Source: Acetobacteraceae bacterium
Lineage (GTDB): Bacteria; Pseudomonadota; Alphaproteobacteria; Acetobacterales; Acetobacteraceae
Direction: 5' to 3'
Assembly: GCA_947478535.1 (NCBI GenBank)
Contig: CANJXD010000012.1
Location: 1 to 25,634, forward strand
DNA: 25,634 bases
Shown here: positions 17,776-25,445 of the stretch, piece after piece
Layout: each line of letters opens with the position of its first letter
How positions within the stretch are numbered: position 1 is the stretch's first letter
Made by a program: the position numbers and the translations under genes
The notes under the pieces: generated by a model
What the model was told of the DNA's origin: nothing
The model's input: only the letters and a program-made list of their open reading frames with translations
Databases searched by the model: none

Positions 17776-18414
17776 TTACGCCGCCACGTAGTCCGCCTCG
17801 GTCCGCGCGCGGACTTCGTCGGCGGAAACGCCCGGCGCCATCTCGACCAGCCGCATTGGCGCATCGCCCTTCTTGTCGATGGCGAAGACGCCGAGATCCG
17901 TCACCACCAGATCGACCACGCGCCGGCCGGTCAGCGGCAGGTTGCAGGCGCGGAGCAGCTTCGCCGAGGCGCCGGCATTGTGCTCCATCAGCACGATCAC
18001 CTTCTTGACGCCGGCGACCAGGTCCATCGCGCCGCCCATCCCCTTGACCATCTTGCCGGGGATCATCCAGTTCGCGAGGTCGCCATTCTGCGCGACCTGC
18101 AGGGCGCCCAGGATCGACAGGTCGATATGCCCGCCGCGGATCATCCCGAAGCTCTGCGCGCTGTCGAAGAAGCTGCTGGTCGGCAGGGCGGTGATGGTCT
18201 GCTTGCCGGCATTGATGAGGTCCGCATCCTCCTCCCCCTCATAGGGGAAGGGGCCGAGGCCGAGCATGCCGTTCTCGCTCTGCAGCTGCACCGTCATCCC
18301 CGTGGGGACGTGGTTGGCCACCAGCGTCGGGATGCCGATGCCGAGGTTGACGTAGAAGCCGTCCTGCAATTCGCGGGCGGCGCGGGCGGCCATCTGGTCA
18401 CGGGTCCAGGGCAT
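17776..18414 (-). CDS. scoB: 3-oxoacid CoA-transferase subunit B
   Basis: A 212-residue beta subunit of a SCOT-type family I CoA transferase, which moves CoA from succinyl-CoA to acetoacetate or a related 3-oxoacid. The catalytic glutamate is in [14 protein letters not shown] (Glu47), which forms the acyl-CoA thioester. [15 protein letters not shown] near 25-39 and [22 protein letters not shown] are typical of the subunit. The start lies 13 bp downstream of the scoA stop, so the two genes form an operon. The C-terminal tail ends EADYVAA. The substrate could be acetoacetate (ScoAB) or 3-oxoadipate (PcaIJ); these differ little by eye. Confidence 0.93.
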
Positions 18415-18427
18415 GGTCGTCTTCTCC

Positions 18428-19165
18428 TCAGGCCTGCGATTCGGCGCCGGCGGCGGCAGCGGCCGGGTGCTTGCGGACCGTGCGCTGTTCGATGCGCTTA
18501 TCGAATTCCGCGGGCAGCGTGATCATCCGCTTCACGAAGATGCCGGGGGTGTGGATGTCATCCGCATCGATCTCCCCGGGGCGGACCAGGTGTTCGACCT
18601 GCGCGACCGTCACCTTCGCCGCCGTCGCCATGATCGGGTTGAAGTTCCGCGCCGTCTTGCGGTAGCGGAGGTTGCCCTCGTGGTCGCCCATATAGGCGTG
18701 GATCACGGCGATATCGGCCAACAGGCCGCGTTCCATGATGAAGTGCTCGCCGTCGAATTCGCGGACTTCCTTGCCCTCCGCCACAGCCGTGCCGTAGCCG
18801 GTCTTGGTGAAGAAGGCGGGCACGCCCGCGCCACCGGCGCGGATGCGCTCCGCCAGCGTGCCCTGCGGGTTGAACTCGATCTCCAACTCGCCCGCCAGGA
18901 ACTGCTTCGCGAAGGTCGCATTCTCCCCCACATAGGAGCTGATCATCTTCCGGATCTGGCGCGTCTCCAGCAGCATGCCGAGGCCGGCGCCATCGATGCC
19001 CGCATTGTTGGAGATGACCGTCAGGTCCTTCACGCCGCTTTCGCGGATCGCTTCGATGAGCACCGAGGGAATGCCGCAGAGGCCGAAGCCACCGGACATG
19101 ATGGTCATGCCGTCCTTGAGCAGGCCGGCGAGGGCTGCCTTGGCATCGGGGTAGATCTTTCGCAT
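18428..19165 (-). CDS. scoA: 3-oxoacid CoA-transferase subunit A
   Basis: A 245-residue alpha subunit of the same transferase. It has the CoA-transferase family I motif [16 protein letters not shown] near 20-36, [11 protein letters not shown], and [17 protein letters not shown], then [23 protein letters not shown] 19165 is preceded by GGAGAG at good spacing; longer in-frame extensions run into the upstream tRNA gene region and are not credible. It is first of the scoA-scoB pair. A tRNA gene and a strong terminator separate it from the catabolic cluster on its right, so it has its own promoter in 19166-19324. Confidence 0.93.
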
Positions 19166-19276
19166 GCGCACTCTCCGGCCGGGGTTCGCGGTGGGGCGGA
19201 ACCTATGCGCTGACGTGACCTTCGGAAAGGGGGCTGGGCCGAAAGGGGATTGGGCGGAAACCGGCTTGGGGGAGGC

Positions 19277-19305
19277 TTGCGCACCCCGAACTCGGCGGCT
19301 ATACG
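19277..19305 (+). promoter_or_regulatory. promoter of the tRNA-Ala gene
   Basis: TTGCGC (19277-19282) and TATACG (19300-19305) are separated by 17 bp and lie 20 bp before the mature tRNA 5' end, a good match to a housekeeping promoter. Confidence 0.55.
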
Positions 19306-19324
19306 GCCGGCCTCCCAATACTAC

Positions 19325-19400
19325 GGGGCCATAGCTCAGTTGGTAGAGCGCTTGAATGGCATTCAAGAGGTCTGGGGTTCGACTCCCCATGGCTCCACCA
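19325..19400 (+). tRNA. tRNA-Ala (anticodon GGC)
   Basis: A 76-base tRNA with the CCA end encoded. The acceptor stem GGGGCCA pairs with TGGCTCC and includes the G3-U70 wobble that marks alanine tRNAs. The D arm has AGCTCAGTTGGTAGAGC, the anticodon arm CTTGA-ATGGCAT-TCAAG places GGC at 34-36, and the T arm is CTGGGGTTCGACTCCCCAT. It decodes GCC/GCU. It stands alone, with its own promoter and terminator. I found no second copy of its 3' end in the window, so no sign that it serves as an integration site here. Confidence 0.97.
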
Positions 19401-19404
19401 GTTC

Positions 19405-19442
19405 AAACCGCCGGTCCCGAATATTCGGGACTGGCGGTTTTT
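19405..19442 (+). terminator. very strong Rho-independent terminator after the tRNA
   Basis: A 17-bp stem (19405-19421 with 19424-19440, one G-T wobble) is centred on the palindrome CCCGAATATTCGGG and followed by five T (19438-19442). It begins five bases after the tRNA. The arms start with AAA and end in TTT, so it should also stop transcription arriving on the minus strand from the catabolic cluster. Confidence 0.92.
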
Positions 19443-19480
19443 CGTTGAGGGGGGCGGCGGGGCTCGCGACTGACGAAAAC

Positions 19481-20164
19481 TCAGCGATCGCCTTCCGCGG
19501 GGATCGCGACCCAGGCGCGGAAATCATCGCTGGCGGGCACGGCGCCGCTGGCGATCAGCCCGCGCCACAGGCCCGCGGCGTGGACCAGGTTGGGCAGGCC
19601 GGCGGGCTGCACCGTGAGGCACATGGCCTCCGCCATGCCGGCTTCCGGCGCGCCGGCGGCATAGGCGGCGCGGAGGTAGCGTTCCACCCCGGCGCCGTCC
19701 CGCCGCGCCGTGCAGGCCGCCAGCATCGCCATGGCGCGGCGCGCGGGTGGCACCTCCGGCACCAGGGCTTGCAGCGCCGCCGCTTCCGCCGCCGCGCCGT
19801 CCCAGCCCGGCAATTGCCCGGCCCAGGCATCGGCCGCGAAATCGAAGCGCGTGCGGCCGAAGGCGAAGGCGGAAAGCCGCAGCGCCGCTTCCACCCCCGC
19901 CACGCCGCCACCGGCTTCTCGGTAGCGGCGGACATGGTGGCGCGCTGTCGGGCTGCCGACGGTAGCGACGATGACGAGCCAGAGGAATTCCTTGTCCTCC
20001 GCCGGCAGCGCCACCGGTTGCAGGGCGAGCCGCCCATAGGCGGCCTCGTAGCTTTCCGCGAATTCCGGCGAGAGCAGGCGGAACAGCCCATGATGCGGCA
20101 GCAGGTAGCCACGCTTCGCGCGCGCCGCCTCCAGCCCTTCGACGAAGCCGTCCCGCACGCTCAT
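19481..20164 (-). CDS. carboxymuconolactone decarboxylase (CMD/AhpD-fold)-like protein
   Basis: A 227-residue soluble protein made of two AhpD-like helical halves. The first has AEDKEFLWLVIVATVGSPTA with a HHVRRYREAGG segment about residues 55-90, the second ARRAMAMLAACTARRDGAGV to RYLRAAYAAGAPEAGMAEAM. The redox CxxC of AhpD is absent. It could be a gamma-carboxymuconolactone decarboxylase-like enzyme or a paralogue of unknown reaction. I chose ATG 20164, seven bases past the Bug receptor stop, over an upstream start that would overlap that gene. It is the last gene of the catabolic cluster, close to the terminator at 19405. Confidence 0.7.
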   Translation of the reverse strand: MSVRDGFVEGLEAARAKRGYLLPHHGLFRLLSPEFAESYEAAYGRLALQPVALPAEDKEFLWLVIVATVGSPTARHHVRRYREAGGGVAGVEAALRLSAFAFGRTRFDFAADAWAGQLPGWDGAAAEAAALQALVPEVPPARRAMAMLAACTARRDGAGVERYLRAAYAAGAPEAGMAEAMCLTVQPAGLPNLVHAAGLWRGLIASGAVPASDDFRAWVAIPAEGDR

Positions 20165-20171
20165 CGCACCA

Positions 20172-21161
20172 TCAATCCGCGAACTGGCCCGCCGCCTGCA
20201 GGATCGGGCGCCAGCGCTCGATCTCGGCGGCGAGGTGGGCGCGATGGACATCCGGGTTCTGGCGCGATTCCGGCTCCGGCGGGCTGCCCAGCTCATTCAG
20301 CCGGGCGACCACGCGGGCGTCCTTCAGCGCGTTCCGCAGCGCGAGGTTCAGGCGGTCGATGATCGGGCGCGGCGTGCCACGCGGCGCGTAGAGGCCGTGC
20401 CAGATGGAGACCTCGAAGCCCGGCAGCCCGGCCTGGCCGGCAGTCGGCACGCCCGGTACCTGCGGCAGCGGTGCCGGCGTGGTGACGGCCATCGCCTTGA
20501 CGCTGCGCGCCTGGATGAACGGAATGGCGCTGGTGGTCTGGTCGCAATAGATGTCGATCCGCCCGCCGATCATCTCGGGATAGACGGGGCCCGAACCGCG
20601 GAAGGTGATGGCGGTCAGCCCGATACCGAGGGAGGCCTGCAACAGCGTGCCGCAAAGCTGGCTGGCGGAGCCGAGCCCGGCATTGGCCAGGTTCACCCGG
20701 TCCCCACGCTCGCGGATGAAGCGCAGCATGTCGCCGAAAGTCTCGCCTTCGAAATTCGGCCGCGTCACCCACACCATCGGCGTGGGCGTCACCAGGCCGA
20801 TGGTCTCGAAGCTGGTCAGCGGGTTGTAGGGCAGGCTGCGATACAGCGTGGCGGCCGTCGCCATGCCGATATTGTGCAGCAGCAGCGACTGCCCATCCGG
20901 CCGCGCCTGCGCCACGCGGTTCACGCCGATGGTGCCGCCGCCGCCGCCGACATTCTCAATCACCACATTGGTGCCGAGGTCACGGCCCATCGCCTCGCCC
21001 ACCATGCGGCCCACGGCATCCGTGGGGCCACCTGGGGCGAAGGGAATCATCAGCGAGATGGGCCCGTTCGGGAAGCTCTGCGCCCGCGCGGCGCCGGGCA
21101 GCAGGAAGGGCGCGGCCAGTGCCGCGGCGAGCGCCATTCGGCGCGCGATCTTGATGCTCAT
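20172..21161 (-). CDS. Bug-family tripartite tricarboxylate transporter substrate-binding protein
   Basis: A 329-residue secreted receptor, second of its family in the window. The signal peptide is MSIKIARRMALAAALAAPFL with cleavage near ARAQS. Family motifs are FPNGPISLMIPFAPGGPTD, VVIENVGGGGGTIGVNRVAQ and ARPDGQSLLLHN. The start at 21161 has a GGGAGA ribosome-binding site; an in-frame ATG at 21197 adds twelve charged residues and no better signal. No TctA/TctB permease genes follow. Its position inside the ring-cleavage cluster suggests an aromatic acid or ring-fission-related ligand. It is distinct in sequence from the receptor at 1504. Confidence 0.93.
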   Translation of the reverse strand: MSIKIARRMALAAALAAPFLLPGAARAQSFPNGPISLMIPFAPGGPTDAVGRMVGEAMGRDLGTNVVIENVGGGGGTIGVNRVAQARPDGQSLLLHNIGMATAATLYRSLPYNPLTSFETIGLVTPTPMVWVTRPNFEGETFGDMLRFIRERGDRVNLANAGLGSASQLCGTLLQASLGIGLTAITFRGSGPVYPEMIGGRIDIYCDQTTSAIPFIQARSVKAMAVTTPAPLPQVPGVPTAGQAGLPGFEVSIWHGLYAPRGTPRPIIDRLNLALRNALKDARVVARLNELGSPPEPESRQNPDVHRAHLAAEIERWRPILQAAGQFAD

Positions 21162-21228
21162 GGTCCGTCTCCCTGGATCTTTTTCGGTAGCAATCATCTG
21201 GACGCGAGGGCGGCCTATCCAATCAGCG

Positions 21229-21260
21229 GCGGCGGCGGCTGTCCATGCAGCCGCCGCCGC
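21229..21260 (-). other. 13-bp perfect intergenic hairpin between BKACE and Bug genes
   Basis: GCGGCGGCGGCTG (21229-21241) and CAGCCGCCGCCGC (21248-21260) form a perfect 13-bp stem with a six-base loop. It starts 9 bases after the BKACE stop in transcription direction. No T run follows on either strand, so it is not a simple terminator; it may set mRNA stability or lower expression of the downstream receptor. Confidence 0.6.
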
Positions 21261-21269
21261 GCTTCGCCT

Positions 21270-22160
21270 TCAGCGGCTCCAGCCGCCGACCTGCGCCAAT
21301 TCGGCGCGGGCTTCGGCCGCCGTCATCGGCTCCACGCCCATCTCCCGCAGCAGGCGCACGGCGCGCTCCACCAGCACGGTGTTGCTCGTCGCGAGCTCGC
21401 CCTTGTTGAGGTAGATGTTGTCTTCAAGTCCCACGCGGACGTGCCCGCCCAGCAGCAGCGCCTGCATCAGCATCGGGAATTCCATCCGCCCGATGGCGAA
21501 GGCGGCCCAGGGGCTGCCGGGGGGCAGGATGGAGCGTGCGTAGTTCAGCGTCTCCGGGTTCCAGTCGAAGCCCCAGCGGATGCCCATGCAGACCTGGAAC
21601 AGGCAGGGGCCCTTCAGCACGCCCTGCTCCATCAGGTTCTTGGCGAGCCCGATATCGCCGCTGTCGAAAACCTCCAGCTCGGGGATGGTGCCGACGGAAT
21701 AGATCAGCTCCGCCATCTTCGTCACCGACCATGGCGCGTTGATGACGACGGCGGTGCCCGACCACATCGTGTTGAGGTCGAGCGTCGCGATCTCGGGCTT
21801 GAGGGCGACGATGTGCTCGACCCGCTTTTCCGGCGGCAGCAGCGTGGAATTCGGCCCCGCCACGCGGGGATTGTCCCGCGACGGATCGAAGCGCCCGCCC
21901 GGCCCGGTCGTCAGGTTGATGACGACATCGGTGGAGGAGGAGCGGATGCGGTCCACCACCTCCTTGTAGAGGTCGAGCGACATGGAGGGCTTGCCCGTCA
22001 CGGGGTCCCGCACATGGATATGCGCGACCGCCGCGCCGGCCTTCGCCGCATCGATCGCGGCATTGGCGATCTGTTCCGGCGTGATCGGCAGATGGGGGGT
22101 CTGCTCGGGGGTCGTGATGTTGCCCGTCACCGCGCAGGTGAGGATGACCTTGCGACGCAT
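21270..22160 (-). CDS. beta-keto acid cleavage enzyme (BKACE, DUF849 family)
   Basis: A 296-residue zinc enzyme of the family that includes 3-keto-5-aminohexanoate cleavage enzyme (Kce). The family condenses a beta-keto acid with acetyl-CoA to give acetoacetate and a new acyl-CoA. Visible marks are KVILTCAVTGN at the first strand, HIHVRD with zinc ligands His47 and His49, INLTTGPGG, and GHVRVGLEDNIY near the end, where the conserved Arg/Glu sit. I chose ATG 22160, the family-typical MRRKVILT start. It lies 4 bp downstream of a 35-aa small ORF, which in turn overlaps the dioxygenase stop, so it is probably co-translated with ring-cleavage genes. The substrate is unknown; subgroups use dehydrocarnitine, 3-keto-5-aminohexanoate, beta-ketoglutarate or beta-ketoadipate. 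Confidence 0.92.
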   Translation of the reverse strand: MRRKVILTCAVTGNITTPEQTPHLPITPEQIANAAIDAAKAGAAVAHIHVRDPVTGKPSMSLDLYKEVVDRIRSSSTDVVINLTTGPGGRFDPSRDNPRVAGPNSTLLPPEKRVEHIVALKPEIATLDLNTMWSGTAVVINAPWSVTKMAELIYSVGTIPELEVFDSGDIGLAKNLMEQGVLKGPCLFQVCMGIRWGFDWNPETLNYARSILPPGSPWAAFAIGRMEFPMLMQALLLGGHVRVGLEDNIYLNKGELATSNTVLVERAVRLLREMGVEPMTAAEARAELAQVGGWSR

Positions 22161-22164
22161 GGTG

Positions 22165-22272
22165 TCAGTCCTTCGCCGGCCCGCGGACGGGCCTGCCATT
22201 GGTGATATCGAGGAAGCGCGTGACGATCACGCGCGCGAAAAGCCCGGCCTTGCCGAAGGGCGGGACCAGCAT
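22165..22272 (-). CDS. small ORF, 35 residues, coupled between dioxygenase and BKACE
   Basis: The ATG shares one base with the dioxygenase stop (TGATG) and the TGA stop is 4 bp before the BKACE start, so a ribosome could pass through all three. The product begins MLVPPFGKAGLF, has RVIVTRFLDITNG in the middle and ends RPVRGPAKD; it is basic, with no clear membrane segment. I do not recognise it. It may be a real small protein, a leader that couples translation of BKACE, or the remnant of a larger gene. Confidence 0.45.
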   Translation of the reverse strand: MLVPPFGKAGLFARVIVTRFLDITNGRPVRGPAKD

Positions 22273-23162
22273 CAGGCGGCCCCCTCCTTCGGGATGCGGA
22301 ATTCATAGGTCAGGGTGGCCGGCCTGCCATCCTTTTTCGCGGCGTCCCAATCCGTCACCAGGCTGGCCTTCACGCCGAACACCGCATCTTCATGCAGATA
22401 CGGGTCGCCATCCTTGAAGATGTGGGTGATGAGGTCGCGGTAGCCCGGCTTCTTGATCCAGAAATGCACATGCGCCGGGCGCATCGGCCCGCGCCCCATG
22501 GCCGACAGCACGCGGCCGACGGGCCCGTCATGCGGCACCGGATAGGCGGCGGGCACCACGGTGGGGAAGGCGATCACGCCATCCGGGCCGGTCACGAAGC
22601 GGCCGCGCATGCTGTGTTCATCGCCGAGCTGGCTGTCGTAGAATCCCTCCGGCGAGGTGTGCCACGCATCGACCTGCGCGCCTTCGAGCGGCGCGCCCTG
22701 CTCGTCACAGATGCGGACGGAGACTTCGAGCAATTCGCCCACCACGCCGGGGGACATGTTGTCCCCGTTCCGCATCGCCGGCGGATTTTCGCGGTGGAAG
22801 GGGCCGAGTACCGTGGTCTCGCTGACCGAGGCATGGGTGCGGTGCGCGATGGCATCCACCAGCATCGACACGCCGAGGATGTCGGACAGCAGGATCACTT
22901 CCTGCCGCTTGTCGTCGCACCATCGACCGAGCTCGGACAGGAAGGCGACGCCCTTCTCCCATTCCTCCGGCGTCAGTTCCACGTCCCGCACGAAGTCATG
23001 CACATGGCGGATCAGCGCCGTCATCACGGTCTGCACGCGGGCATCCGCATCGGGGCGGATGCGGCCGAGCACGGCTGCCGTGAGGTTTTCGCTCGTATAG
23101 GTGACGTGGCCTTCGGTATGGCTATCGTGGCCTTCGGTATGGTTATCGTGGCCTTCGGCCAT
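22272..23162 (-). CDS. intradiol ring-cleavage dioxygenase (hydroxyquinol/catechol 1,2-dioxygenase)
   Basis: A 296-residue non-haem Fe(III) enzyme. The N-terminal dimerisation domain (about 25-115) reads SENLTAAVLGRI, TALIRHVHDFVRDVELTPEEW and ILGVSMLVDAI. The catalytic domain shows ETTVLGPF, VDAWHTSPEGFYD with iron ligand Tyr175, AAYPVPHDGPVG with Tyr207, and RPAHVHFWIKKPGY with His231 and His233 plus Arg228. It opens catechol or hydroxyquinol between the hydroxyls, giving muconate or maleylacetate; the overall look is closer to hydroxyquinol dioxygenases. The first 19 residues are an unusual His-rich repeat. GGAAGGAAA is the ribosome-binding site. It follows the MDR gene by 50 bp. Confidence 0.92.
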   Translation of the reverse strand: MAEGHDNHTEGHDSHTEGHVTYTSENLTAAVLGRIRPDADARVQTVMTALIRHVHDFVRDVELTPEEWEKGVAFLSELGRWCDDKRQEVILLSDILGVSMLVDAIAHRTHASVSETTVLGPFHRENPPAMRNGDNMSPGVVGELLEVSVRICDEQGAPLEGAQVDAWHTSPEGFYDSQLGDEHSMRGRFVTGPDGVIAFPTVVPAAYPVPHDGPVGRVLSAMGRGPMRPAHVHFWIKKPGYRDLITHIFKDGDPYLHEDAVFGVKASLVTDWDAAKKDGRPATLTYEFRIPKEGAA

Positions 23163-23163
23163 G
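23106..23163 (-). repeat. 21-bp tandem repeats coding a His-rich N-terminus
   Basis: A 21-bp unit (starts GTGGCCTTCGG on the plus strand) fills 23106-23126 and 23127-23147 with one mismatch, with a partial third copy at 23148-23163. On the minus strand it codes the heptads EGHDNHT and EGHDSHT, then EGHVTYT. This puts five His in the first 19 residues of the dioxygenase. Confidence 0.9.
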
Positions 23164-23212
23164 GCCTGTTTCCTTCCGTGGGCTCGGGCTTATGCGGGGG
23201 CGGCGTGGGGCG

Positions 23213-24223
23213 TCAGCGCATCGTCAGGACAACGCGCCCGCGCGTACCGCGGGCGACGGAGGCATAGGCAGCGGCACCATCGGCCAGCGCGTGGCGCTCC
23301 GCGATGGCGGGGGCGGGATAGGTCCCGGCTTCGAAGCCGGGCCGCAGCGCGTCCATCATCGGCGCGCAGTCGGCTGCTTTCCGCTTCAGGCTATCGACGC
23401 CGATGATGCGGCATTCCCGGCGGTAGAAGGGGATCATCTCGAACTTCATCGCCCCGCCCGGCGTGCCGGAAATCAGGATGATCCGCCCGCCGAAGCCGAG
23501 CGCGGCCAGCGCGGCTTCCACCAGCTCCGGCCGGCCGACACAGTCATAGACCACGTCGATCGGCTTGCCGCCGCTGGCGCGCTGGATCGCGGCGCTGAAA
23601 TCGGGCTCGGTCAGGTCGATGAAATCGGCCGTCGCGTGGCGCGCCGGGCTATCCGCGGGGGCGGCGCCCCGGCAGGCGGCGATGACCTTCATCCCCTTGC
23701 CACGCGCGATGCCGCAGGCCGCCCCACCGACACCGCCGGTGGCGCCGATGACGAGCAGCGTCTCTCCAGCCTTCACCTGGGCATAGTCCAGCCCGATCCA
23801 GGCGCTGATGTAGTTCACGCCGACCGCGCCGGCCTGCTCGAAGCTGAGATTGGCGGGCTTGCGGGACAGGGCGGCGATGGGCAGGCGCAGGTAGTGGGCG
23901 TGGCTGCCATCCCGCGTGAAGCCGATATCGCCCCCGGTGCCCCAGACCTCGACGCCCATCCAGGCCGCGGGGCCGGCGACGACGACGCCGGCAAAATCCC
24001 GCCCGGGCGTGCGCGGCGGCACGGTCTGTTGCATCCGGCCGAGCACGTTCTTCGTGTCCGAGGGGTTGATGGAGGCCGCACGCACGGCGACCAGCGCCTC
24101 CTCCGCGCCGGGGTGCGGGATGTCCGCCTCCACCAGCCGCAGGACCTCCGGGCCGCCAAAGGCTTCGAAGCGCAGGGCGGGCGCGCGGGCAGGCAGGGCC
24201 ACGGCAAGCGGCGCGTCGTTCAT
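23213..24223 (-). CDS. zinc-independent MDR oxidoreductase (quinone oxidoreductase-like)
   Basis: A 336-residue medium-chain dehydrogenase/reductase. The N-terminal GroES-like domain has RFEAFGGPEVLRL, AASINPSDTKN and PGRDFAGVVV. The NADPH-binding domain begins LLVIGATGGVGGAACGIA (GATGGVG at 160-166). The zinc-ligand Cys and His of alcohol dehydrogenases are missing, as in quinone oxidoreductases and enoyl reductases. I chose ATG 24223; the ATG at 24268 adds fifteen polar residues. As first gene of the minus-strand cluster it lies next to the putative LacI operator. It might reduce a quinone or an enoyl/maleylacetate-type intermediate, but the substrate cannot be read from sequence. Confidence 0.88.
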   Translation of the reverse strand: MNDAPLAVALPARAPALRFEAFGGPEVLRLVEADIPHPGAEEALVAVRAASINPSDTKNVLGRMQQTVPPRTPGRDFAGVVVAGPAAWMGVEVWGTGGDIGFTRDGSHAHYLRLPIAALSRKPANLSFEQAGAVGVNYISAWIGLDYAQVKAGETLLVIGATGGVGGAACGIARGKGMKVIAACRGAAPADSPARHATADFIDLTEPDFSAAIQRASGGKPIDVVYDCVGRPELVEAALAALGFGGRIILISGTPGGAMKFEMIPFYRRECRIIGVDSLKRKAADCAPMMDALRPGFEAGTYPAPAIAERHALADGAAAYASVARGTRGRVVLTMR

Positions 24224-24323
24224 CGGCGGGCATTTCCTCTCTGGCGGCTTCTCGGGCGTCTTCGCCATCTCTTCACGGCGGCATCTTCGTAAGGGTGGGT
24301 GAAAGGGGGGTCAAGCGAAAGAC

Positions 24324-24335
24324 GCAATCGATTGC
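24324..24335. promoter_or_regulatory. putative LacI-family operator
   Basis: GCAATCGATTGC is a perfect 12-bp palindrome with the central CG step and flanks common in LacI/GalR-family operators. It lies 101 bp from the MDR start and 43 bp before the lacI-type start, in the divergent region (24224-24377). It is a good candidate for binding by the adjacent regulator, controlling both directions. Confidence 0.65.
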
Positions 24336-24377
24336 ACCGCTTGCCTGCCCGGCCTGCCCGCTAGAGAGTGCGCCCCC

Positions 24378-25445
24378 ATGCCGCCGCGCCGCCAGACGCC
24401 TGAATCGCCCCAGCCCGCCCCCTTCGCGCGGGCCACCATCGCCGATGTCGCACGCGCGGCGGGGGTGCACGCCTCCACCGTGTCGCGCGCCCTGAACCCG
24501 GCGACGCGGGGGATGGTGACGGACGCGGTGGCGCTGCGCGTCACGGCGGCGGCAGATGCGCTGGGCTGGCGGCCCTCGGCGCTGGCCGCCGGGTTGCGGA
24601 CCCGCAAATCCCGCACAATCGGCATCCTGGTGCCGGACCTCATCAACCCGATCTTCCCGCCGATCGTCCGCGCCGCCGAAACCCTGCTTGCGGCGCAGGG
24701 CTACGCCACGCTCGTCGCGAACACCGACAACGACGCGGCGCGGGAGGAGATGCTGATCTCCCGCATGTCGGAACACCTGGTGGATGGGCTGATGCTGGCC
24801 TCCGCCGCGGAAGGAACACGGGCGATCGAGCTCTGCGCCCGCTGGGGCATCCCCGTGGTGCTGATCAACCGCCGCCTGCCCGGCGCCACCTGTTCGGCGG
24901 TGACGAATGATGACCGGCGCGGCATCGCGCTGGCGGTCGGCCACCTTGTCGGGCTCGGCCATCGCCGCATCGCGCATCTCGCCGGGCCGCCCGGCGTGTC
25001 GACCGCGATCGATCGGCGGGACGGGTTTCTCGAAGCCCTGCGCGGGGCGGGGCTGGACCCCGCGGCCATGGTGGATGCGGCGGCCTATACGCGGGACGCC
25101 GGGCGGGCGGCGATGCAGGCTCTGCTGCGAGGGCCGGCCTTCACCGCCGTGATCGTGGCGAACGACATGCTGTGCCTCGGCGTGTATGACGCGCTGAAGC
25201 AGGCCGGCCTGCGGATCGGCGCCGATATCGCCGTCACCGGCTTCAATGACATGCCCTTCGTGGACATGATCGACCCGCCGCTGACCACCATCCGCATCCA
25301 GCACGCCGCCATGGGGCGGGAGGCGGCGGAGGCCCTGCTGGCCGAGATCGCCGATCCCGCCACCGCGCGCCGGGACACGCGGCTGGTGCCCGAGCTCATC
25401 CTTCGCGCCTCCACGGCACGCCCCTCAGCCAGCCAGGACCGCTGA
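24378..25445 (+). CDS. LacI-family transcriptional regulator
   Basis: A 355-residue repressor-type protein. The N-terminal helix-turn-helix is TIADVARAAGVHASTVSRAL (20-39), followed by the hinge ALGWRPSALAAGLRTRKS and the periplasmic-binding-protein-like effector domain (about 72-345): TIGILVPDLINPIFPPIV, VDGLMLASAAEG, GHRRIAHLAGPPG, VIVANDMLCLGVYDALKQAG and VTGFNDMPFVDMIDPPLTT. It is divergent from the MDR-dioxygenase-BKACE-Bug cluster with a palindrome between them, which points to local control of that cluster. The ligand is probably a pathway metabolite or the imported acid, though most relatives bind sugars. Its TGA overlaps the ATG of the next gene. Confidence 0.95.
   Translation: MPPRRQTPESPQPAPFARATIADVARAAGVHASTVSRALNPATRGMVTDAVALRVTAAADALGWRPSALAAGLRTRKSRTIGILVPDLINPIFPPIVRAAETLLAAQGYATLVANTDNDAAREEMLISRMSEHLVDGLMLASAAEGTRAIELCARWGIPVVLINRRLPGATCSAVTNDDRRGIALAVGHLVGLGHRRIAHLAGPPGVSTAIDRRDGFLEALRGAGLDPAAMVDAAAYTRDAGRAAMQALLRGPAFTAVIVANDMLCLGVYDALKQAGLRIGADIAVTGFNDMPFVDMIDPPLTTIRIQHAAMGREAAEALLAEIADPATARRDTRLVPELILRASTARPSASQDR

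Follow-up and report, generated by a model that had tools for sequence, protein, structure and literature searches.

Three described systems come closest to the locus analysed here. The classical hydroxyquinol (1,2,4-trihydroxybenzene) pathway consists of a hydroxyquinol 1,2-dioxygenase (HQDO), an iron-type maleylacetate reductase, PcaIJ and PcaF. In Methylobacterium, a beta-keto acid cleavage enzyme (BKACE) has already been proposed to replace PcaIJ/PcaF; on that proposal, made in PMC8963497 and restated in PMC12379598, intradiol cleavage would be followed there by the product of kce (NF053568), encoded in a pca cluster. The deoxyribonate oxidation cluster joins a short-chain dehydrogenase/reductase (SDR) to a BKACE and delivers acetoacetate to general metabolism, and the accessible part of PMC6365646 mentions no dioxygenase in it. 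The original survey of the BKACE family is cited, in the parts available, by PMC4922564 and PMC11961710. Here we describe a gene cluster in a stretch of 25,634 nucleotides (the window; GC content 0.70) from an Acetobacteraceae bacterium, contig CANJXD010000012.1. A minus-strand run encodes a medium-chain dehydrogenase/reductase (MDR), an HQDO, a BKACE, a Bug receptor and a carboxymuconolactone decarboxylase (CMD)-like protein; a plus-strand tRNA-Ala(GGC) and the scoA/scoB genes follow (Table 1). We hold the chances to be evenly balanced that the minus-strand genes, as an operon under the control of LacI, serve the catabolism of 1,2,4-trihydroxybenzene or a close derivative. Compared with the classical pathway, the locus has an MDR for the maleylacetate reductase and a BKACE for PcaIJ/PcaF. 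It shares intradiol cleavage followed by a BKACE with the Methylobacterium system, which differs in serving the protocatechuate/catechol branch and in using another BKACE subfamily. Relatives of the locus resemble the deoxyribonate cluster in having an SDR near the BKACE, but the window has none.

An initial annotation, made from the sequence of the window, had placed the dioxygenase, the MDR, the BKACE, the Bug receptor and the CMD-like protein in one minus-strand cluster. Profile searches confirmed all five, and we add a divergent LacI-family regulator to that list. To learn about the conservation of the cluster, we scanned genome contigs for BKACE relatives and read the neighbourhoods of the best 80 of 164, up to 10 kb per side (many contigs are shorter); in the neighbour-gene counts, matches below 35% of the query length were dropped. 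An HQDO adjoins the BKACE in 25 of the 80 loci and an MDR is present in every one of these. Recurrence at 25 of the 80 loci shows that the gene set is not a product of chance; the cluster is a real, conserved catabolic unit. HQDO, MDR and BKACE apparently form a co-regulated set, here called the module. Thirteen module loci belong to Acetobacteraceae/Roseomonadaceae and share the gene order of the window, and 12 belong to Betaproteobacteria or Bosea, mostly with the genes in the order HQDO, SDR, BKACE, MDR, cupin (MDR and cupin are inverted in Bosea L034). The module occurs in two gene orders, with HQDOs of different lineages. In the remaining 55 loci no HQDO adjoins the BKACE and those read hold other kinds of genes; two close Acetobacteraceae relatives (L013 and L046) have the BKACE without an HQDO. 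Among the accessory genes, an NMT1-like binding protein is found at 9 of the 13 Acetobacteraceae module loci, and the CMD-like gene at 3 of these and at none of the other 12. We found no description of the HQDO-MDR-BKACE module in the open-licence literature, so that publication elsewhere is possible. A separate pairing of ring cleavage with this BKACE subfamily is seen at L040:9995-13033, where, by eye, the BKACE follows an aminotransferase and precedes two PcaG/PcaH-like intradiol dioxygenase genes, the first of which recurs in five loci.

The dioxygenase is most likely of the hydroxyquinol type, judging from its family, its place in the tree and its active-site residues. The best PDB matches are 8r2x, 1tmx and 3n9t. 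In a 48-row tree, a clade of 22 rows (SH-aLRT 89) unites the window HQDO with 1tmx, 3n9t (PnpC) and 8r2x, with four HQDOs from maleylacetate reductase clusters and with one further Variovorax row; the HQDO of the classical pathway belongs to this clade too. The Tyr/Tyr/His/His iron ligands of intradiol dioxygenases are intact. Seven residues (Leu80, Asp83, Val107, Phe108, Ile199, Arg218 and Val251) we take to line the hydroxyquinol-type pocket of 1tmx; five are retained in the window, including the equivalents of Leu80, Asp83 and Arg218, and the other two are replaced, Phe108 by Leu and Ile199 by Val. The NCBIfam catechol and chlorocatechol models score the protein well under their cut-offs.

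The reductase of the cluster, being an MDR, has no Fe-ADH domain. Its best PDB match is the quinone oxidoreductase 1yb5, and by-eye reading of the sequence indicates that the zinc-binding cysteine motif is missing. To our knowledge, all known maleylacetate reductases are of the iron type. That none is visible in the window, as the initial annotation had remarked, was borne out by a maleylacetate reductase query, which found no match there at E 1e-5. When the 25 module genomes were searched with the maleylacetate reductase of L170, 14 gave nothing above 136 bits. Six of these 14 are isolates (G005, G006, G008, G011, G018 and G025), and Falsiroseomonas oryziterrae, Roseomonas oleicola, Humitalea rosea and Variovorax soli are among the isolates so affected; the other eight are metagenome-assembled genomes of unreported completeness, in which the absence is weak evidence. 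The MDR is the obvious substitute and may function like a maleylacetate reductase. In the Pigmentiphaga group (genome G035), an MDR-HQDO pair stands without a BKACE at L233:8724-10707, and the full module is also present (L234); because the pair occurs without a BKACE, the MDR is tied to the ring-cleavage step.

The window BKACE, aligned to Kce, retains H47, H49, E246, R242, D247 and E163, presumably the zinc ligands and catalytic residues. The BKACE structures 9zsc, 3c6c, 8rip (Paracoccus) and 2y7f (Kce) share its fold, zinc ligands and catalytic residues; Glu14 of Kce corresponds to Ile15. Sequence identity is 53% to 9zsc, 49% to 3c6c and 36% to Kce, and a paralog of the 3-oxoadipate type is 31% identical. 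A single-sequence model (pLDDT 39.7) was discarded, and a good alignment-based model was used instead.

True members of NF053568, the 3-oxoadipate:acetyl-CoA acetyltransferase family, are encoded at other loci in 7 of the 25 module genomes. Seven of these loci, drawn from six of the genomes (all but G002), were examined, and five contain ben/cat or pca genes: L163, L164 and L165 have CatA, CatB and BenC matches, L166 has a PcaH match, and L168 has PcaH, PcaC-like, PcaD-like and PcaI matches. L167 and L169 gave no CatA, CatB, BenC or pca match. At L168 it is the gene adjoining the BKACE that matches PcaI (41%), indicating that some NF053568 clusters retain a CoA-transferase. These bacteria thus seem to have a beta-ketoadipate pathway that ends in a BKACE, though a different one from that of the module. 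To this extent the bypass of PcaIJ/PcaF that had been read from the window seems to exist, and the general idea is in print already. A PcaF query found no match in the window at E 1e-5, yet a pcaF equivalog is present in 23 of the 25 module genomes, so missing genes do not compel the module to stand in for PcaF. The two genomes without the equivalog are those of Bosea G019, which has an NF053568 BKACE, and G022, in which the gene is seemingly split at contig ends. At L163 (G001:C14:6100-6918, Falsiroseomonas stagni) the 3-oxoadipate BKACE paralog carries an in-frame TAG, and a stop-free copy is found at L166.

A LacI gene adjoins the module in 12 of the 13 Acetobacteraceae loci and in 7 of the 12 from Betaproteobacteria and Bosea; at L005, the sole Acetobacteraceae locus without it, the contig begins inside the MDR gene. 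The LacI-MDR gap of the window contains the palindrome CGCAATCGATTGCA. Taken alone, the window gives it no significance (0.77 occurrences of a 13-base form would be expected when up to 2 mismatches are allowed). In a scan of the module loci that left out L031, the palindrome was found, matched in 13 or 14 of its 14 positions, where LacI and the first gene meet in all 19 module loci holding LacI, falling at the HQDO frame start in L035 and L037. The module loci without LacI in range (L005, L030, L039, L052 and L053) reach at best 11 of 14. Exact copies of TGCAAWCGWTTGCA occur at 18 sites, spread over 15 of the 25 module genomes, and 14 of these sites belong to the module; the reversed pattern, used as a control, is absent from all 25 genomes. 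Because the pattern was derived from module promoters, finding it there is built into the test, but its rarity elsewhere is not. Together these data suggest that the operon is probably regulated by LacI via a predicted operator, and we give TGCAATCGATTGCA as the candidate LacI target sequence. Four of the 18 sites lie off the module, two within long open frames (L217 and L218) and two, L215:6223 and L216:6724, upstream of paired RidA and Bug genes, each in a Roseomonas-type genome; this pair is a possible second member of the regulon. Beyond LacI in the Falsiroseomonas loci lies, by eye, what we take to be a nicotinate lower-pathway-like set (L001:74-4698; aminopeptidase-like dioxygenase, alpha/beta hydrolase and MarR).

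On the pathway that we propose, the HQDO would open the ring to maleylacetate or a substituted maleylacetate, as its family, tree position and active-site residues suggest. The MDR would then reduce the ketone-conjugated C=C bond in place of an iron-type maleylacetate reductase, and the BKACE would transfer the acetyl end of 3-oxoadipate or an analogue to acetyl-CoA, yielding acetoacetate and succinyl-CoA or its analogue. The acetoacetate would pass into general metabolism, for which a housekeeping ScoAB would serve. The order of ring cleavage, reduction and BKACE cleavage, which the initial annotation had already put forward, is a fair reading of the gene content and agrees with the conserved HQDO/MDR/BKACE unit; the inclusion of ScoAB in the route falls away, as shown below. 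We tentatively propose, with rather less than even confidence, that this is a hydroxyquinol-type route without an iron-type maleylacetate reductase, 3-oxoadipate CoA-transferase or thiolase, in which a dedicated LacI controls an HQDO, a maleylacetate reductase of the MDR family and a BKACE whose subfamily has no named substrate, and that it is common to Roseomonas-type alphaproteobacteria, Bosea and Betaproteobacteria.

A number of observations weigh against this proposal. The window BKACE scores 159 bits with NF053568 (cut-off 350), and two module BKACEs of relatives score 156 and 178, compared with 473-474 bits for two NF053568 paralogs in relatives. Higher scores were obtained with the models for 3-keto-5-aminohexanoate (245 bits) and 3,5-dioxohexanoate (203 bits), both below cut-off. 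In the alignment, Thr17 stands where 3-oxoadipate enzymes carry Arg (RKK); this residue is Thr in 12 of the 13 Acetobacteraceae rows and Lys or Arg in 10 of the 12 Betaproteobacteria/Bosea rows, so the two sets of enzymes may differ in substrate. The two module groups do not form one clade in the BKACE tree. On the side of the dioxygenase, 8r2w, named a hydroxyquinol 1,2-dioxygenase, and the Betaproteobacteria/Bosea module HQDOs do not group in the 22-row clade with the window HQDO; the tree is a quick one with several long branches. A maleylacetate-reductase-clade protein (at least 310 bits) is present in 11 of the 25 module genomes, and in two cases that were read it is encoded in a classical HQDO cluster at a separate place (L170 and L171); the module substrate may therefore differ. 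Genes that plain hydroxyquinol breakdown does not call for are frequent: an SDR is found at 24 of the 25 module loci (12 of the 13 from Acetobacteraceae), a cupin at all 12 Betaproteobacteria/Bosea loci, and a whole YciI gene between HQDO and BKACE at 9 of the 13 Acetobacteraceae loci. Finally, the window gave no SDR and no NMT1-like match, and of YciI only the last 31 residues remain, between HQDO and BKACE; the window operon is thus a reduced form and could be partly decayed. A similar YciI remnant was found in none of L001, L002 and L014.

That the BKACE is the known 3-oxoadipate enzyme was rejected on its failure with NF053568, on the residue alignment and on the true family members at other loci. 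Its subfamily placement, which had been called for, lies outside NF053568.

The substrate may not be plain hydroxyquinol, the main reasons for doubt being the lack of a 3-oxoadipate signature and the presence of SDR, YciI and cupin genes in relatives. An alternative that we consider unlikely, but would not neglect, is that the starting ring compound is a hydroxyquinol carrying a substituent, or else a cyclic precursor that the SDR oxidises, with SDR, YciI or cupin handling the extra group and the BKACE acting on a beta-keto acid other than 3-oxoadipate. This would account for the SDR and for the YciI or cupin gene at 21 of the 25 module loci, for the replacement of the basic residue by Thr17, and for the coexistence of the module with classical hydroxyquinol clusters. 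It fits poorly with the window and L003, both of which lack an SDR, and with the state of YciI in the window.

More improbable is the complete scheme of the initial annotation, in which hydroxyquinol is converted through maleylacetate and 3-oxoadipate to succinyl-CoA and acetoacetate, with ScoAB as the dedicated last step. The gene set is there, the HQDO has a hydroxyquinol signature, and 14 module genomes are without a maleylacetate-reductase-clade protein. The scoAB genes do lie just past the cluster, a gap of 315 bp separating the start of scoA from the stop codon of the CMD gene, and pass TIGR02429 and TIGR02428, subfamily models that also cover PcaIJ. However, none of the 25 module loci has scoAB within the flanks read (up to 10 kb per side, less on many contigs), and of the 80 BKACE loci one has it (L060, 7 kb off). 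Orthologs of scoB with 79-96% identity are present in all 16 Acetobacteraceae-type genomes searched, three of them from BKACE loci without HQDO. Among the 13 module-bearing Acetobacteraceae genomes, eight scoAB regions were examined (two only 5 and 9 kb long); scoAB adjoins tRNA-Ala(GGC) in all eight, and UppP is nearby in four, as in the window. In these relatives the module lies 130 kb or more from scoAB or on a different contig, and since scoAB sits apart from it, the adjacency is a trait of the window lineage. Given its absence near the module loci and its own tRNA-Ala block, scoAB is rejected as a module member, and the two genes look like a housekeeping pair that is a chance neighbour of the operon. 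The BKACE result given above also stands against the scheme.

We regard it as very unlikely that the MDR acts before the dioxygenase as a hydroxybenzoquinone reductase, with the BKACE cleaving maleylacetate to maleyl- or fumaryl-CoA and acetoacetate. The quinone-oxidoreductase type of the MDR would suit such a step, as would the YciI gene between HQDO and BKACE, since YciI is, we assume, the family of TftG. However, a BKACE with an unsaturated substrate is not known to us, and an enzyme for the resulting CoA ester is not seen in the module. That the BKACE, with the SDR, belongs to a separate beta-hydroxy-acid route and is merely co-regulated with the ring-cleavage genes is highly improbable, for the SDR-BKACE clusters of deoxyribonate catabolism (the available part of PMC6365646) and the BKACE loci without HQDO are outweighed by the MDR at every HQDO-BKACE locus and by the lack of an SDR in the window and L003.

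Table 1. Features of the window around the proposed operon, with positions in the whole stretch.
Feature	Position	Strand	Support
LacI-family regulator, divergent from the operon	24378..25445	+	LacI 40 bits; Peripla_BP_3 125 bits
Candidate LacI operator CGCAATCGATTGCA	24323..24336	no strand	13/14 match to TGCAAWCGWTTGCA
MDR reductase, quinone-oxidoreductase/enoyl-reductase type	23213..24223	-	ADH_zinc_N 60.5 bits; ADH_N
Intradiol dioxygenase of hydroxyquinol-1,2-dioxygenase type (HQDO)	22272..23162	-	Dioxygenase_N/C 105.6/113.6 bits
YciI remnant, last 31 of 102 residues	22168..22260	-	67.7% to L008 YciI, E 2e-10
BKACE (DUF849, PF05853)	21270..22160	-	320 bits, cut-off 24.8
Bug/TctC periplasmic receptor	20172..21161 (or to 21197, open frame)	-	PF03401 143 bits
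CMD-like protein	19481..20164	-	PF02627 30 bits, cut-off 23
Hairpin with T run 3' of the tRNA, between two transcription units	19405..19442	+	Folding energy
tRNA-Ala(GGC), part of the neighbouring block, outside the operon	19325..19400	+	
scoA, neighbour outside the module	18428..19165	-	TIGR02429 264 bits; CoA_trans
scoB, neighbour outside the module	17776..18414	-	TIGR02428 309 bits; CoA_trans

The start of the MDR is probably at 24223, as in a 336-aa database copy, and the short BKACE start is backed by relatives and by an upstream GAAGGA. The CMD-like protein has no NCBIfam match and no PcaC equivalog assignment, and a PDB search with it gave chance-level matches, nearly all to antibody chains. 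The scoAB pair scores 154 and 250 bits with CoA_trans. The tRNA that had been noted between scoAB and the cluster is present, and so is a candidate for the terminator: on the plus strand, the strong hairpin after the tRNA has a minimum folding energy of -31 kcal/mol (z -5.1) and is followed by a T run, and on the operon strand it also folds (z -5.3) but GAAC follows. A simple terminator scan did not list the post-tRNA hairpin.

The site 3' of tRNA-Ala, from window position 19401 onward, differs in gene content among relatives. The downstream side of the tRNA was read in six regions: in three, a gene for 124 aa and a Kup-like gene adjoin the tRNA, and the others differ; L195 has, by eye, a recombinase-like gene about 6 kb on. 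The site may be a hot spot for insertions. The window, which may end too early, yielded no repeat of the tRNA 3' end of the kind that an integrated island would leave. Elsewhere in the window, at 122-2481, a gene resembling by eye a tannase/feruloyl esterase adjoins a second Bug-like receptor, 34% identical to the operon Bug. A plasmid search of the window gave 34 records; among the 20 matches listed, all are to scoAB except one 419-base piece of the BKACE.

If the proposed route is correct, an MDR-type maleylacetate reductase would be added to the known iron-type ones, and a BKACE subfamily without a named substrate would gain a physiological role. A maleylacetate reductase or pcaF missing from a genome would then not exclude growth on hydroxyquinol-type compounds. 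The palindrome common to the module loci offers a simple handle on the inducer.

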